From Sterolibacterium sp. (GTDB lineage Bacteria; Pseudomonadota; Gammaproteobacteria; Burkholderiales; Rhodocyclaceae): a DNA stretch of 46,842 nucleotides. Shown piece after piece: positions 10,779 through 46,842 of this stretch; the first letter of the stretch is position 1, and every line of letters begins with the position of its first letter. The notes under the pieces are model-generated. The model saw only the letters and a program-made list of their open reading frames with translations, was not told the origin of the DNA and made no database searches. Where the stretch lies: the NCBI GenBank assembly GCA_018061005.1, contig JAGOVA010000017.1, positions 1 to 46,842 of the forward strand, written 5' to 3'. Position numbers and translations under genes: made by a program.

Positions 10779-10886
10779 GATTGCCTCAAACCACGGTATC
10801 CGGTGGCGAATGAAAAAATCAGTCTATCACGCACTCATCCGGCTAAAAACACGCAGGTAGTAGGGATATTCCGTGAAAACACGGGC

Positions 10887-13581: not shown

Positions 13582-14457
13582 ATGACTGATCTTGCCGATT
13601 TTTTGAGCCGTGCCGAGCAGTTGCTGGCGCGCGTCGAGGCCTTGCTACCTGCACCGGCCAGCCCGCCCGACTGGGAAACCGCCCTCGCATTCCGTTGGTT
13701 GCACGGCGCAAAGCCGCACCAGGGTGGGCAGTTGCAGGCCGTGCCCCACCCCCATCGCATCCGCCTCGACCATCTTTGCGGCATTACAGCGCAGGCGCAG
13801 CGGATCGAACAAAATACCCGTCAATTCGTCGCCCGACGGCACGCCAACAACGTGTTGCTGACCGGGGCACGCGGCACGGGCAAATCCTCACTGGTCAAAG
13901 CCATGCTCGACCGCTTTGCCCCGGAAGGCCTGCGCCTGATCGAAGTGGATAAACAGGATCTCGTCGATCTGCCGCAAATTGTGGCTCTGGTCGCCGCTCG
14001 ACCCGAGCGTTTCATCGTGTTCTGCGACGATCTCTCCTTCGAATCCGGCGAGCCCGGCTACAAGGCACTGAAAAGTGTGCTGGACGGTTCGATTGCCGGT
14101 GTGCCAGACAACCTGCTGATCTACGCCACCTCCAACCGCCGTCATCTGATGCCCGAATACATGGCGGAAAACCTGGACACCCATCATGTCGGCGAGGAAG
14201 TCCATCCGGGTGAGCAGACCGAAGAAAAAATCTCGCTTTCCGAGCGTTTTGGCCTCTGGCTGTCTTTTTACCCGTTCGACCAGGAACACTATCTCGCCAT
14301 CTGCCGTCACTGGCTGACTGAATTTGGCATGCTGTGCTGGGATGACGAAATCCGTCAAGAAGCCCTGCAGTGGGCACTCTCACGCGGCTCGCGCAATGGC
14401 CGGGTGGCCTGGCAGTTTGCCCGCGATCTGGCCGGACGATCGGGGCATACCCCATGA
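13582..14457 (+). CDS. DUF815-family AAA ATPase
   Basis: The 291-residue predicted P-loop ATPase has Walker A GARGTGKSS near residue 94, Walker B FIVFCDDLSFE near 150, and a sensor region with LLIYATSNRRHLMPE. This is the DUF815 (PF05673) pattern, a family of AAA+ proteins of unclear function widespread in proteobacteria. No membrane helix is seen. It overlaps the next gene (Nudix-ThiE fusion) by ATGA at 14454-14457; the same order, ATPase then MutT/Nudix, occurs in many betaproteobacteria downstream of argJ/secA regions (recalled, not checked). Confidence 0.88.
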   Translation: MTDLADFLSRAEQLLARVEALLPAPASPPDWETALAFRWLHGAKPHQGGQLQAVPHPHRIRLDHLCGITAQAQRIEQNTRQFVARRHANNVLLTGARGTGKSSLVKAMLDRFAPEGLRLIEVDKQDLVDLPQIVALVAARPERFIVFCDDLSFESGEPGYKALKSVLDGSIAGVPDNLLIYATSNRRHLMPEYMAENLDTHHVGEEVHPGEQTEEKISLSERFGLWLSFYPFDQEHYLAICRHWLTEFGMLCWDDEIRQEALQWALSRGSRNGRVAWQFARDLAGRSGHTP

Positions 14458-17792: not shown

Positions 17793-19145
17793 TCAACCGA
17801 CCTTGGGCAGATGATGCAAAGCTTCTTCGATGGCCGCCGCCGGATACGCGTAATCTTCAAGCTGACCAGCCAAATATTTGTCATACGACAACATATCGAA
17901 ATGACCATGCCCTGAAAGACAGAACAGCAACGTTTTGGCTGCGCCGGTTTCCTTGCAGTGCAGCGCTTCGTCGATACAGGCACGAATCGCGTGGCAGGAT
18001 TCCGGCGCGGGGACGATCCCCTCGGTGCGTGCAAACTGCACGCCCGCTTCAAAGGTCGCCACCTGATTGACCGCCACGGCCTCGATGATGCCTTCCTTGT
18101 AGAGCTGCGAGACCAGCGGCGAATCACCGTGATAGCGCAGACCACCTGCATGAATGCCGGGCGGCACAAAATCATGGCCGAGGGTGTACATCAACATCAG
18201 CGGCGTGTAGCCGGAAGCGTCGCCATAATCATAGGCATAGTGCCCCCGCGTCAGGGTCGGGCAGGAAGCGGGTTCCACGGCAACCAGCCGCACGTTCTTG
18301 CCCGCCGCCTTGTCCGCAATGAAGGGAAAGGCGATGCCGCCGAAATTGGAGCCACCGCCACAGGGCGCAAAGATCACGTCGGGGTATGCGCCGATTTTCT
18401 CGAACTGCTTTTTGGTCTCCAGGCCGATCACCGTCTGATGCAGGATGACGTGATTGAGCACCGAGCCCAGCGTGTAGTTGGTGTCGGCGCGCGAAGCCGC
18501 CTCTTCAACCGCTTCGGAAATGGCAATGCCCAGCGAACCAGGGCAGTTCGGGTCGCGTGCCAGCGCATCGCGCCCGGCCTGGGTCTGGGTGGTCGGGCTG
18601 GCAAAAACTTCAGCACCCCAGGTCCGCATCAGCGAGCGGCGGAAGGCCTTTTGCTCATAGCTGACCTTGACCATATACACCCGCACGTCGAGGCCAAACA
18701 TCTGCCCGGCCAGCGCAATCGAAGAACCCCACTGCCCCGCGCCGGTTTCGGTCGACAACCGCTTGATGCCCGCCTGCTTGTTGTAATACGCTTGCGGCAC
18801 GGCGGTATTGGGCTTGTGCGAACCGGCGGGCGAACCCCCTTCGTACTTGTAATAAATTTTTGCGGGCGTACCCAGGGCTTTTTCCAGACGTACGGCACGA
18901 CACAACGGGGCTGGCCGCCAGAGCTGATAAATCTCACGCACTTCTTCAGGAATGGCAATCCAGCGTTCGGCAGACATTTCCTGTTCGAGCAGACTGGCCG
19001 GGAATATCTCCAGCATCTTTTGCGGCGTGACCGGCTGGCCATCTGCACCCAGCGGCGGTGCGGGCGGATTGGGCATATCGGCAACGACGTTGTACCAGTG
19101 GGTCGGGATTTCTGATTCGTCAAGCAGTATCCGGGTGTTTTCCAT
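17793..19145 (-). CDS. TrpB2-type tryptophan synthase beta subunit-like PLP enzyme
   Basis: The 450-residue fold-type II PLP enzyme is of the TrpB2 branch, longer than standard TrpB and usually without a TrpA partner. The PLP lysine lies in [11 protein letters not shown], the glycine-rich phosphate loop in [14 protein letters not shown], and the family mark [20 protein letters not shown] follows. TrpB2 makes tryptophan from indole and serine, or uses phosphoserine in some archaea. AGGAG lies 14 bases before the ATG at 19145, rather far. It is unusual inside the birA-coaX-SPOR-coaE run and may have been inserted. Confidence 0.92.
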
Positions 19146-43016: not shown

Positions 43017-43523
43017 ATGATTCGTGAAGTAGAAGGCGACATCCTGCTGAGCCAGGCGCAGTTGATTGCACACGGCATTGCGACGCACGACCCGTTTGAT
43101 TCAGGGCTGGCACTGGCGTTGCGCGAGCGGTTTCCGGCGATGATCAAGGATTTTCGTCATGCGACGCATGCCAAAGCGGCAGAAACCGGGCAACTATGGG
43201 CGTGGCATGGCGTGGCGGAAGATGGCTCGACGCGCAGCATCGTGAATCTGCTGACCCAGGGAATGCAGGGGCAAGGCGGTGCGGCGCGGCCGCTCAAGGC
43301 CAAGCTGGAAGATGTCAATCATGCCTTGCGTGCATTGGCGCGGCATGTGAAGGAAGAAGGGATCAAAAGCCTCGCGCTGCCGCGTCTGGCTACGGGAGTC
43401 GGTGCGCTGGCATGGAGCGACGTCAAGCCGCTGATCGAGCAGCATCTGGGCGGCCTGGGGGTTCCGGTGGTGGTATATGCGGTGTTCCACCCGGGACAAA
43501 AGGCGGACGAAAAACTGGTCTGA
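43017..43523 (+). CDS. Macro-domain protein (ADP-ribose-binding/hydrolase type)
   Basis: The 168-residue protein starts MIREVEGDILLSQAQLIAHG, the macro-domain entry. VNLLTQG and SLALPRLATGVGALAWSDVK contain the substrate loops. Macro domains bind or remove ADP-ribose or its derivatives; this short variant lacks the usual N-terminal Asn-x-Asn pair, so hydrolase activity is uncertain. AAGGAGC lies 6 bases before the ATG. An FNR-like site upstream suggests anaerobic expression. A terminator follows. Confidence 0.86.
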   Translation: MIREVEGDILLSQAQLIAHGIATHDPFDSGLALALRERFPAMIKDFRHATHAKAAETGQLWAWHGVAEDGSTRSIVNLLTQGMQGQGGAARPLKAKLEDVNHALRALARHVKEEGIKSLALPRLATGVGALAWSDVKPLIEQHLGGLGVPVVVYAVFHPGQKADEKLV

Positions 43524-43550
43524 ACAGAACATCGACACCCGGTAACAACT

Positions 43551-43584
43551 CGCTAAAAAGCCCGCTCATGCGGGCTTTTTAGCG
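43551..43584. terminator. Terminator after the macro-domain gene
   Basis: The 14-base perfect stem GCTAAAAAGCCCGC/GCGGGCTTTTTAGC (43552-43565 with 43570-43583) has a TCAT loop. The A/T-rich arms let it work in either direction. The 230 bases after it, up to the CRISPR-Cas remnant, hold no gene that I can support. Confidence 0.88.
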
Positions 43585-43817
43585 GGTGCAAATGCCGCGC
43601 GAGCGTGGAGGCGTTGCTTTCTCAACGGATGGATCGCCGGTCACATGCAATGTGACAAATGAATTATTGATCTGCTCTGGTTGCGTTTGAAGTATCGTTC
43701 GAACTGCGCCTGACGCAGACCGGGTGACCACAGCCCTTCGGCAAGCCTGCCCTGAGATTTATCGAAGGTTTCAGTGGGAAGGCACGGTTCTGGATCAATA
43801 TGAATGCCGGAGGAGTC

Positions 43818-44804
43818 ATGGAGTTCTGGGGGAAGCTGTCCGATGATCGAAAGTGCCATTTATCCCTGGCAGACCATAGTGTCGACGTTGCTTGCGTCTT
43901 TCGTGCCTTATGCGATCTACCGTCGATTCGACGCAGCCTCGGAATCGACGCCACCACCATGGATCGCCTTGCTGTGTTCGCGCTTCTTCACGACCTCGGA
44001 AAATGCAACTCTGGATTCCAGGCAAAACGAGACCCGAACGCGAAAGATACTGCCGGCCACGTCAAGGAAACTGCCGCATTGCTCTACGACACAACGCTCG
44101 GCCCCATGGCTAGCGAAGCACTTGGCCTTGAAGAGATGTGCTCATGGTTTGCCGCCCCGGAAGCAGACCTACCTCGCTTGTTGCTTGCGACCATCTTTCA
44201 TCATGGAAAACCGGCATACAAGGACGAGATCGGGCAGAGCAATGAAATCGGCAGGTTGAAACGACACTGGTTACCCCGCGATGGCATTACCCCCTTCGAC
44301 GGTCTTAAGGAACTGGCCAAGGCCGCCCGCCGTGCCTTCCCCAGCGCATTCAAACCTGATGCACCACCAATCGAAGTCAGCGTCGAACTGGAGCATCGCT
44401 TCGCTGGGCTGGTGATGCTCGCTGACTGGCTCGGTTCGCATCGCGAAGCCTTTTTCCCTTTCGAACACGAAGGGGATCGCTTTGACTGGTCGCGACGCCA
44501 AGCGAGAAAAGCGCTGATCGCCATTGGCCTAGATGTTTCTTCCGCCCGAAGCAAGATTAAACACGATCAACCTACTTTCGGCGCTGCGTTCGGCATTCGC
44601 GGCGAACCGCGCCCCTTGCAGTCAGCGCTGGACAGCGCCGACCTGCCTGCCTTGATGATTGCGGAATCCGATAACCTTGAGCGCACCTTGCGTAGGGAAG
44701 CGGCAATGGAGTTTCGCCGGGTGAAACTCATCTCACACATGATTGAACGCATCAAGGAACTGTTCCATGTCGATGACGGTGGTAGTGACACGCAACGTGA
44801 GTGA
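43818..44804 (+). CDS. cas3: Chimeric Cas3 HD domain joined to a probable Cas1e C-terminus (type I-E remnant)
   Basis: The 328-residue protein begins MEFWGKL and has the Cas3 HD nuclease: His20 (LADHSV), His58-Asp59 (LLHDLGKCNSGFQAK), His-His in IFHHGKP and Asp in MLADWLGSH. It runs up to FGIRGEPRPLQSALDSADLP and ALMIAES, which in Cas3 stands just before the helicase P-loop. There the frame changes partner: from about residue 285 NLERTLRREAAMEFRRVKLI and SHMIERIKELF look like the C-terminal helices of Cas1e. The helicase is lost. The stop at 44804 overlaps cas2 by 38 bases, as cas1 does in intact loci. The start at 43818 has GGAGGAG near; ATG 43800 is an alternative. HD part sure, Cas1 tail inferred. 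Confidence 0.8.
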   Translation: MEFWGKLSDDRKCHLSLADHSVDVACVFRALCDLPSIRRSLGIDATTMDRLAVFALLHDLGKCNSGFQAKRDPNAKDTAGHVKETAALLYDTTLGPMASEALGLEEMCSWFAAPEADLPRLLLATIFHHGKPAYKDEIGQSNEIGRLKRHWLPRDGITPFDGLKELAKAARRAFPSAFKPDAPPIEVSVELEHRFAGLVMLADWLGSHREAFFPFEHEGDRFDWSRRQARKALIAIGLDVSSARSKIKHDQPTFGAAFGIRGEPRPLQSALDSADLPALMIAESDNLERTLRREAAMEFRRVKLISHMIERIKELFHVDDGGSDTQRE

Positions 44805-45057
44805 CCGCGTACGCGGCTTTCTCGCATCGTCGATGCTGGAACTTGCGCCGGGCGTCTATAGCTCGCCGCGAATTACGCCCGCCGTGCGGGATCGCATCTG
44901 GCGAGTGCTTGGCGACTGGTTTCCGAACGAAAATGATGCATCGATCGTCATGCTATGGGCAGATGCGGCGATGCCCGGTGGACAAGCAGCAGCGACTTTG
45001 GGACTACCACCCATTAGATTGTTTGAAATTGACGGGATGCTGGTAACACTTCGTTAG
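44767..45057 (+). CDS. cas2: CRISPR-associated protein Cas2e (type I-E)
   Basis: The 96-residue protein starts MSMTVVVTRNVSDRVRGFLA and continues SSMLELAPGVYSSPRITPAV, ending with PPIRLFEIDGMLVTLR; this is the Cas2e (CasB/CT1978) subfamily. With Cas1e it integrates new spacers; here no full Cas1 is encoded, so it cannot act alone. The ATG at 44767 overlaps the chimera by 38 bases. The frame is intact, which is notable in a deleted locus. The array begins 48 bases later. Confidence 0.93.
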   Translation: MSMTVVVTRNVSDRVRGFLASSMLELAPGVYSSPRITPAVRDRIWRVLGDWFPNENDASIVMLWADAAMPGGQAAATLGLPPIRLFEIDGMLVTLR

Positions 45058-45105
45058 TCTGTTCTTTCACAATTTGGTAGATAATTCATCTGTTTGAACG
45101 ATAGA

Positions 45106-45317
45106 CTCTCCCCCGCGCACGCGGGGATCGACCCGCAAAGGGGGGAGGCTCCAGACATGCTACGATCTCTCCCCCGCGCACGCGGGGATCGACCCTGGGA
45201 TTTTCATTTTAGATTAAATTCGCGTACGTCTCCCCCGCGCACGCGGGGATCGACCCTTACACTTTCCGCCAAGCGTTACGATCTCGGACTCTCCCCCGCG
45301 CACGCGGGGATCGACCT
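45106..45317 (+). CRISPR. Type I-E CRISPR array, four repeats and three 32-base spacers
   Basis: The 29-base repeats start at 45106, 45167, 45228 and 45289, an exact 61-base period: CTCTCCCCCGCGCACGCGGG followed by GATCGACCC. The spacers are 45135-45166, 45196-45227 and 45257-45288, each 32 bases. The repeat forms a hairpin CCCCGCG/CGCGGGG typical for Cas6e, but no cas6e is present. Repeat 3 has G for C in the first base and repeat 4 has T for C in the last. The short A/T-rich interval after cas2 is the leader. The array stops at the IS66 fragment. Confidence 0.97.
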
Positions 45318-45634
45318 TTTGGTATCTGACCGATCCGGATGTGCCGATCGACACCAATCATCTGGAGCGGGCGTTGCGGGCGATTCCGATGGGGCGAAAA
45401 AACTGGATGTTCTGCTGGACTGAACTGGGGGCCAAACACGTCGGGATCATGCAGAGCCTGATCGTGACCTGCCGACTTCATCAAATCGATCCTTATGACT
45501 ATCTGGTCGATGTGCTGCAGCGGGTCGGTCAGCATCCCGCTAGCCGTGTCGAGGAATTGACGCCGAGATTGTGGAAGCAATTCTTCGCCAGTGAGTCGCT
45601 TCGATCGTCTTTGCACACGGCTTCGATGGGGTAA
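45318..45634 (+). pseudogene. IS66-family transposase (TnpC), C-terminal fragment
   Basis: The frame is readable from the base after the last CRISPR repeat: WYLTDPDVPIDTNHLERALR, then AIPMGRKNWMFCWTELGAKH and IMQSLIVTCRLHQIDPYDYL, ending at TAA 45632-45634. This is the IS66 catalytic C-terminus and DUF-like tail with HPASRVEELTPRLWKQFF. The rest of the transposase, the accessory genes and the left end are absent; no start with ribosome site exists. It is a remnant that truncates the CRISPR array. Confidence 0.92.
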
Positions 45635-45671
45635 GCAAGTACGCTGGGGGCAATGATTCAATCGCCACGGA

Positions 45672-45992
45672 TCACTCCTCGAACAATTCAGAGTGCGTGC
45701 CTGCCCGCACAAAGATGATGGCGTTGCCATCCAGGCGGTAAATGAGCAGGAAGTCGCCGCCGATGTGACATTCGCGGTGGTCAGCCCAATCACCCTTCAG
45801 CGGGTGATCCAGCCATTCAGGCCCCAGCTGCGCATCGTTGCCAATGAGCAGCAACATCGCCTCCTTCAGCCGCTTCAGGTCGTAGCGGCCCGAACGCGAG
45901 AGGCGTTCCCAGTCTTTGAGGAAAGTCTTGGTGTAATCGCTCGCCTTGGGCAGCGGCGCCCGCTTACTGCTGGCGGGCTTTTTCGAGGTCAT
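45672..45992 (-). CDS. YafQ-family type II toxin (mRNA interferase)
   Basis: The 106-residue protein matches the RelE/YafQ fold. The Lys-rich start (MTSKKPASSKRAPLPKASDY) is followed by TKTFLKDWERLSRSGRYD and L-x-G-x-WADHRECHIGGDFLLIYRLDG, then IIFVRAGTHSELF. YafQ cuts mRNA on ribosomes; conserved His and Asp residues are visible in WADHRECHIGGDF and GTHSELF. It overlaps the antitoxin gene by 29 bases, so the two are coupled. The start at 45992 is the only ATG that fits. Confidence 0.9.
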   Translation of the reverse strand: MTSKKPASSKRAPLPKASDYTKTFLKDWERLSRSGRYDLKRLKEAMLLLIGNDAQLGPEWLDHPLKGDWADHRECHIGGDFLLIYRLDGNAIIFVRAGTHSELFEE

Positions 45993-46242
45993 CGATCAGG
46001 GCGTCTGCAGACTCAAAACGGGCGGTGCGCGCCTTGGCCATGGCGCGGGCTTCTTCCATCGCCGCGCGGGTCTGGGCGTTAGGCACCTTCAACTCCAACG
46101 GGAAGGCCTGGTCGTTGACCACGCGCTTGAGCAGGATGCGCACGGCATCAGACACCGACAGCCCCATGGCTGCCAGCGCCTCGCTGGCTTGCGTCTTGAT
46201 TTCGTCGTCCACCCGGACGTGCAGCATCGTGGAATGAGCCAT
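45964..46242 (-). CDS. RelB/DinJ-family antitoxin
   Basis: The 92-residue protein starts with a ribbon-helix-helix DNA-binding part (MAHSTMLHVRVDDEIKTQAS, then EALAAMGLSVSDAVRILL) and ends with a flexible toxin-binding helix (EEARAMAKARTARFESADAL). GGAGG lies 8 bases before the ATG at 46242. It precedes the toxin gene, the classical order, and should repress the operon through the GTATC repeats upstream. Type II RelB/DinJ. Confidence 0.93.
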   Translation of the reverse strand: MAHSTMLHVRVDDEIKTQASEALAAMGLSVSDAVRILLKRVVNDQAFPLELKVPNAQTRAAMEEARAMAKARTARFESADALIDDLEKARQQ

Positions 46243-46253
46243 GATCGAATCCT

Positions 46254-46289
46254 CCGTATCCGCAATTATGTATCTCGATTGCGATACGG
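46254..46289 (-). promoter_or_regulatory. Probable operator of the toxin-antitoxin operon
   Basis: CCGTATCCGCAA (46254-46265) and TTGCGATACGG (46279-46289) form an imperfect inverted repeat, with a third GTATC half-site at 46270-46274. It overlaps the ribosome site of the antitoxin gene, where autoregulating RelB-type proteins usually bind. Between here and 46501 I see no other feature. Confidence 0.5.
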
Positions 46290-46501
46290 TCAAGTAACCG
46301 CTGGCGGTGCTCTGGCGGCGTTCGATGCCTGACCGGTCGCCTTGGTTGACAGCGAACCGGCGGTCGTAAGTCCTTGATTTTGCTAGGCCGCCATCTGCGC
46401 CTACCCGCAGGCCAAACAGAGAACAGAGACCGCTCTGGCTGAGAAAGTGGCCGATTTCGGGCGTTTCGGGTGATGGTCACCCGCAGCACAGGTGGTCGGA
46501 A

Positions 46502-46518
46502 CCCCGCGTAGCGCGGGG
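46502..46518. repeat. Short GC-rich palindrome
   Basis: CCCCGCG-TAG-CGCGGGG is a perfect 7-base hairpin. It stands 15 bases before the terminator below, with no T run of its own. Similar in form to the CRISPR repeat stem, but it is a single copy. Confidence 0.6.
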
Positions 46519-46533
46519 ATTTCAGGCAAGAAA

Positions 46534-46560
46534 AAGGGCCCGGAGATTATCCGAGCCCTT
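46534..46560 (-). terminator. Terminator of the helicase gene at the right edge
   Basis: AAGGGC-C-CGGA and TCCG-A-GCCCTT pair with one mismatch. On the minus strand the hairpin is followed by TTTTTCTT. It lies about 117 bases after the helicase stop on the same strand. Confidence 0.7.
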
Positions 46561-46677
46561 GTATATGGTGGCGGATGGTTCCCGCCCGAAAAACCGTCTA
46601 CCTAGATTAGATCGTACTTCTGCGGGTTGATGCGGGCGGGAGAGAAAATTGCAGTCAACGTCCTCATTTTCGCGGGT

Positions 46678-46842
46678 TCATCCCACGGTTCCGCTGCCAT
46701 CCACCCGATATCCCATCGCCCGGTAGCCGCGCTGTCGTTTGTCCCACATTCGCAGCAGTGCCGGGTGACCGGTGTCGACAAAGTCGATGATCCGCACGTC
46801 GGTCTTGCTGGCGTGCTCCCGGTGCAGGCGCCCGGCATATTG
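46678..46842 (-). CDS. DEAD/DEAH-box helicase, C-terminal end, cut by window edge
   Basis: Reading from the window edge on the minus strand, 54 residues start QYAGRLHREHASKTDVRIID and continue FVDTGHPALLRMWDKRQRGY to the stop at 46678-46680. QYAGRLHR is helicase motif VI of superfamily 2, and the tail with RMWDKRQRGYRAMGY is the usual end of large DEAD/DEAH proteins related to type III restriction and UvrB-like helicases. Its neighbours, a CRISPR remnant and a toxin pair, suggest a defence role; only the end is visible. Confidence 0.75.
   Translation of the reverse strand, partial: QYAGRLHREHASKTDVRIIDFVDTGHPALLRMWDKRQRGYRAMGYRVDGSGTVG

Follow-up and report, generated by a model that had tools for sequence, protein, structure and literature searches.

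What does a single open reading frame that begins as Cas3 and ends as Cas1 represent: a new protein that the cell has kept, or what remains of a CRISPR-Cas operon that was lost? Such a frame lies in a 46,842-nucleotide stretch of DNA from Sterolibacterium sp. that was analysed at its full length (the window). We suggest that it is very probably the scar of a single in-frame deletion of 7.14 kb that put a complete type I-E CRISPR-Cas operon out of action.

The fused frame and its two parts

The open frame occupies positions 43800-44804 of the window. GGAGG precedes an in-frame ATG at 43818, and this ATG lines up with the start of Cas3 in the closest related locus that we found (L038, described below), so that a product of 328 amino acids starting there is likely. 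In the frame 43818-44804, residues 1-285 correspond to the HD domain of a type I-E Cas3, and are followed in frame by the last 43 residues of a Cas1e. A simple scan of the plus strand, which carries little weight, returned no sigma-70-like promoter. The features of the region are:

43818..44673, + strand: HD nuclease domain of type I-E Cas3, residues 1-285 (PF18019, TIGR01596, identity to L038, HD motifs, Foldseek)
44673..44674, + strand: predicted deletion junction, with 7,140 bp missing compared to L038 (10868 to 18008) and 1 bp of microhomology
44674..44804, + strand: last 43 residues of Cas1e plus stop codon, in frame with the Cas3 part (TIGR03638, identity to L038, alignments of relatives)
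44767..45057, + strand: cas2e, intact, overlapping the fused frame (PF09707, E 5.4e-22; TIGR01873, E 6.8e-22)
45107..45317, + strand: CRISPR array remnant, four repeats of 28 nt and three spacers of 33 nt (DNA aligned with L038)
45322..45650, + strand: 3' fragment of an IS66-family transposase gene beside the last (fourth) repeat (PF13817, E 9.8e-15; PF03050, E 7.6e-9)

The identity of the HD part is clear from several lines of evidence: it matches the Cas3_HD family of Pfam (PF18019) with an E-value of 6.2e-29 and TIGR01596 with 1.9e-20, is 80% identical to the L038 Cas3 over 284 codons at the amino-acid level, and retains intact the HD motifs that are conserved in an alignment with 12 relatives. 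The pLDDT of an AlphaFold model of the fused protein averages 76 and exceeds 80 over much of the HD region; when this model was used in Foldseek, the best matches were the Cas3 structures 4q2c (E 5.7e-6) and 3sk9 (E 1.4e-5). The HD part stops at AESD, directly before the helicase P-loop, where relatives read AESDTGSGKT.

The profile match of the tail covers positions 235-269 of the 269 positions of TIGR03638 (Cas1e), with an E-value of 0.018 for the whole protein as query and of 8.2e-4 for a 56-residue piece containing the tail. A sequence search of the PDB with the same piece returned no Cas1, the best match (E 0.68) being a designed protein. The tail is, however, 89% identical in amino acids to the end of the L038 Cas1e over 44 codons, and 77, 72 and 72% identical to frames in three further genomes (G350, G245 and G590), each located approximately 7 kb downstream of the genome's own cas3. 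While the profile match is weak by itself, together with the relatives it makes the predicted assignment to Cas1e firm, and these matches rule out that the tail is a Cas3 C-terminus. When the L038 Cas1 is aligned with a Cas1e chain of known structure, the retained part falls at the C-terminal end. The Cas1e catalytic core is thus absent from the fused frame, and we take the catalytic residues to lie upstream of the 43 residues that are left. In the AlphaFold model, the tail is a single helix with block means of pLDDT of 32-52; the alignment behind the model contained only two further sequences for the tail.

A probable deletion relative to the intact operon of L038

A contig scan of genomes yielded 79 related loci, the closest being L038 (JAPLQY010000073.1, from a Rhodocyclales MAG) with 79% identity. 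Its operon is complete, in the order cas3-cse1-cse2-cas7-cas5-cas6-cas1-cas2-array, and all eight genes match their NCBIfam type I-E families; for Cas3 the match to PRK09694 (E 4.3e-84) is under the cut-off of that model, while the HD and helicase domain models are over theirs. Alignment of the window DNA with L038 extends to position 10868, within cas3, and resumes at position 18008, within cas1. The two points are separated by 7,140 bp, or 3 x 2,380, which is exactly 2,380 codons, and at the junction (44673/44674) the two sides have 1 bp in common. Calculated from alignments, the corresponding distance is about 7,127 bp in L039 and 7,142 bp in L040. A single deletion would explain this junction. 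What was lost compared to L038 is Cas3 from the P-loop onward, the Cascade genes cse1, cse2, cas7, cas5 and cas6, which in L038 sit between cas3 and cas2, and Cas1 except for its last 43 residues; the HD domain, the Cas1e tail, cas2e, the leader and four repeats are still present.

Cas2e is 91% identical to that of L038 in amino acids, and its overlap with the fused frame is that of cas1 and cas2 in L038, where cas2 (at 18102) starts before cas1 ends. The alignment with L038 continues across the leader and repeats, and the 28-nt repeats and 33-nt spacers next to cas2e are a type I-E feature. The array remnant is then followed by the IS66 fragment, which shares 98% identity over 329 bp with a copy found on contig C82 of the same genome and lacks both the upstream part and the last bases found in other copies. 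IS66 copies also sit at the ends of several contigs of this genome. A RelB/YafQ-type toxin-antitoxin pair (45672-46290, minus strand) adjoins the array end and has relatives on plasmids; none of the 192 matching plasmid records had one place covering 80% of 43500-46842, and all ten matches listed hit the RelB/YafQ pair. Contig C128 carries a lone 29-nt stretch (G000:C128:135293-135321) that is 93% identical to the I-E repeat region; being a single repeat-like 29-mer outside any array, it was rejected as a second I-E array.

These comparisons bear out most of a sequence-only reading of the same DNA, which had proposed that a Cas3 HD domain ending just before the P-loop is fused to a Cas1e C-terminus, that the Cas3 helicase was lost along with Cascade and the greater part of Cas1, and that the adjoining cas2e, overlapped as by cas1, is intact; its suggested searches of the HD part against Cas3 and of the tail against Cas1e families gave the matches above. 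Its single in-frame deletion also stands, while the size that it gave, roughly 9 kb, has to be reduced to the 7,140 bp measured on L038.

Replacements for the lost genes were sought in the rest of the genome. No Cas1e over the cut-off was seen elsewhere (the controls matched in 10 of 14 genomes, in two of them over the cut-off), nor was a second I-E Cas3 or helicase (controls matched in 11 of 14, none over the cut-off), and the ~7.1 kb of L038 that are deleted here had no match in a search run without a positive control. Given that the Cas3 helicase and the Cas1 core are gone, the I-E locus alone can neither interfere nor adapt.

Distribution, and a second damaged CRISPR locus

A search with the fused protein gave a match in 52 of 395 genomes of the family and in 27 of 399 genomes of the order (two overlapping samples), the source genome being counted in both; only in the source genome do HD part and tail share one frame. 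Matches in G606 and G664 that span the HD end and the tail with 28-29% identity were rejected as antisense to another long frame, which looks penicillin-binding-protein-like by eye. Of the 79 related loci, an HD match is seen in all, a helicase match in 77 and a Cas1 match in 49; none combines HD and Cas1 in one frame (three frames are cut by a contig end and two matches are partial). Six of the frames in these loci are shorter than 600 codons though not cut by a contig end, so that a broken or short cas3 is not unique to this genome. The same junction, which the sequence-only reading had suggested looking for in related genomes, was thus seen in the source genome alone, and a wider family of such fusions can be set aside for the family, order and locus samples searched. 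The exact 20-mer across the junction had no match in IMG/VR, and the phrase 'Cas3-Cas1 fusion' retrieved no paper from the open-access literature.

The same genome carries a type I-C locus on contig C130 (L117; G000:C130:78000-97000), where the cas3 frame continues into the N-terminal portion of cas7c at about L117:9163-9172. Approximately 2.65 kb are missing there compared to L126, which at this place holds cas5c (E 2.7e-63) and cas8c (E 2.2e-173); no cas8c was found in the source genome, with controls matching in 1 of 14 genomes. A deletion comparable to that in the I-E locus would thus have removed cas5c and cas8c and joined cas3 to cas7c. The locus retains cas4 and cas1 according to family matches, with a cas2-like frame, identified by eye, next to them. 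Between cas7c and cas4 (L117:10027-10625) there are small frames that by eye look like an antitoxin-toxin pair (DUF433, DUF5615-like); L126 has a frame similar to the first of these at the same place. The I-C array is interrupted (L117:13690-14449), with 12 repeats followed by other DNA and one further repeat at 14449. An impression by eye of phage-like frames (Mu-like, tape-measure-like) beside this array was given no support by Pfam.

Eleven spacers were read in the main I-C array, and one of them (L117:13329-13364) matches a resident gene at 34 of 36 positions (L146:3708-3743, on G000:C88), a member of the phage-integrase family (PF00589, E 8.3e-19). The protospacer has 5'-TTC beside it, and TTC is given as the PAM of a type I-C system in the portion of PMC8406640 that we draw on. 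It is plausible that this self-targeting spacer, which sits in a system now lacking its effector, was a cost favouring loss of the I-C effector.

Scar, new protein or artefact

In our view the locus most likely reflects ordinary CRISPR-Cas decay with an unusually clean in-frame scar, and the fused frame is a young leftover rather than a new working protein. The junction would have been created by near-blunt illegitimate joining; the deletion may have been tolerated or even favoured as CRISPR-Cas turned costly or useless, and would be recent enough for the frame to be still unbroken. Translation of the frame would yield a predicted HD metal nuclease domain on its own, followed by a helical tail; since neither Cascade nor a helicase is left for target delivery, this product most likely has no immune function. 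Decay is also visible directly beside the fused frame, where four repeats are followed by the IS66 fragment, and in the effector loss of the type I-C locus; we count both as supporting a deletion scar. The intact frame, the intact HD motifs and the intact cas2e speak against it to the extent that a functional protein would also show them.

A rival proposal is that the fused protein has been kept as a new HD nuclease, in which the HD domain cuts single-stranded DNA while the Cas1e tail provides a partner or a fold, perhaps in concert with the overlapping Cas2e. Besides its open frame, plausible ribosome-binding site and intact HD motifs, and the existence of stand-alone Cas3 HD proteins, it can draw on the low dN/dS of the HD part since the split from L038, 0.11 (NG86) or 0.14 (YN00) over 284 codons; the values are 0.14 and 0.41 for the tail (44 codons), and 0.085 and 0.082 for cas2e (96 codons). 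The branch in question may, however, mostly reflect time before the deletion. When changes were polarised, amino-acid changes with L039 and L040 and synonymous changes with L039 alone, the HD part showed 19 amino-acid changes and 17 synonymous ones for the window branch, compared with 13 and 24, respectively, for that of L038 (Fisher p 0.16); amino-acid changes are, if anything, more numerous on the former branch. The corresponding counts were 2/3 and 1/2 for the tail, and 5/11 and 2/5 for cas2e (p 1.0); columns with a gap in any of the window, L038 and L039 were omitted throughout, as were amino-acid differences whose direction could not be assigned (26 in HD, 1 in the tail, 2 in cas2). The counts prove neither constraint nor relaxation after the deletion, and the earlier suggestion that selection has kept the frame open thus finds no backing in them. 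One in three random deletions would keep the frame, and an open frame would be the expected leftover of a recent event; a recent deletion suffices to explain the intact HD motifs, the intact cas2e and the lack of a significant rate change. With a tail that is modelled as one helix at low pLDDT and a fusion seen in one genome only, we regard a retained nuclease as very improbable. There is likewise only a very slim chance that the cell uses the chimeric gene, a helicase-free HD nuclease with a Cas1e tail, perhaps together with Cas2e, as a Cascade-independent nuclease or regulator.

The fusion could also be an artefact of assembly, in which two remote parts of an operon that is in fact intact were put together, or strain variants were merged. 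The assembly is a draft (135 contigs, 93% complete), and the IS66 copies at several contig ends would suit such an error, but the two sides have a single base pair in common at the junction, the DNA is colinear with L038 on both sides, and neither the missing genes nor, in the DNA search without positive control, the missing DNA turned up on other contigs; we therefore think an artefact hardly likely. A different matter is self- or cross-targeting, for instance of I-E genes by I-C spacers or of resident elements by I-E spacers, which concerns the cause of the loss and not the nature of the scar. The I-C spacer matching the integrase gene shows that a self-match is present, but none of the 11 I-C spacers, and none of the three I-E spacers, matches the searched I-E loci of relatives, so that the I-C spacers were rejected as anti-cas spacers. 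The remaining I-E spacers, to which the array is now reduced, have no convincing target in their own genome and no exact match in IMG/VR (0 for each). Targeting as the cause is in our opinion unlikely.

Read as a deletion scar, the locus offers a base-pair view of the one-step inactivation of a complete type I-E operon, and the genome illustrates well how CRISPR interference can be lost in parallel, both CRISPR systems seen in it having lost effector genes. Should the fused protein be used after all, a new gene would have been born from a CRISPR deletion; nothing here requires that.

Loss of a CRISPR-Cas locus is known from other settings. In the parts of PMC3784566 considered here, a type III-A locus was lost by mutation and deletion under laboratory selection; the deletions described there lie mostly between transposons or repeats, unlike the near-blunt junction of this locus. 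The passages of PMC8616872 that we draw on ascribe incomplete loci to degeneration, with self-targeting as a possible origin of some, and also report that at least some seemingly incomplete systems do work, which calls for caution. Incomplete loci and orphan arrays combine a partial cas set with a short array, as seen here; the difference is that the deletion here is in frame and has left a chimeric gene. The type I-E operon of L038 is alike in gene order at both ends, HD domain, Cas1e tail, cas2e overlap, leader and repeats with a 61-nt period, whereas the window lacks the Cas3 helicase, cse1, cse2, cas7, cas5, cas6 and all of Cas1 but 43 residues. The Cas3 HD domain of Thermus thermophilus (3sk9) has the HD fold and motifs in common with the fused frame. 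Stand-alone Cas3'' HD nucleases exist as well and resemble it in the same fold and motifs; the present frame differs from both of these in that it joins a truncated type I-E Cas3 HD domain to a Cas1e tail, with no helicase or effector adjoining it.
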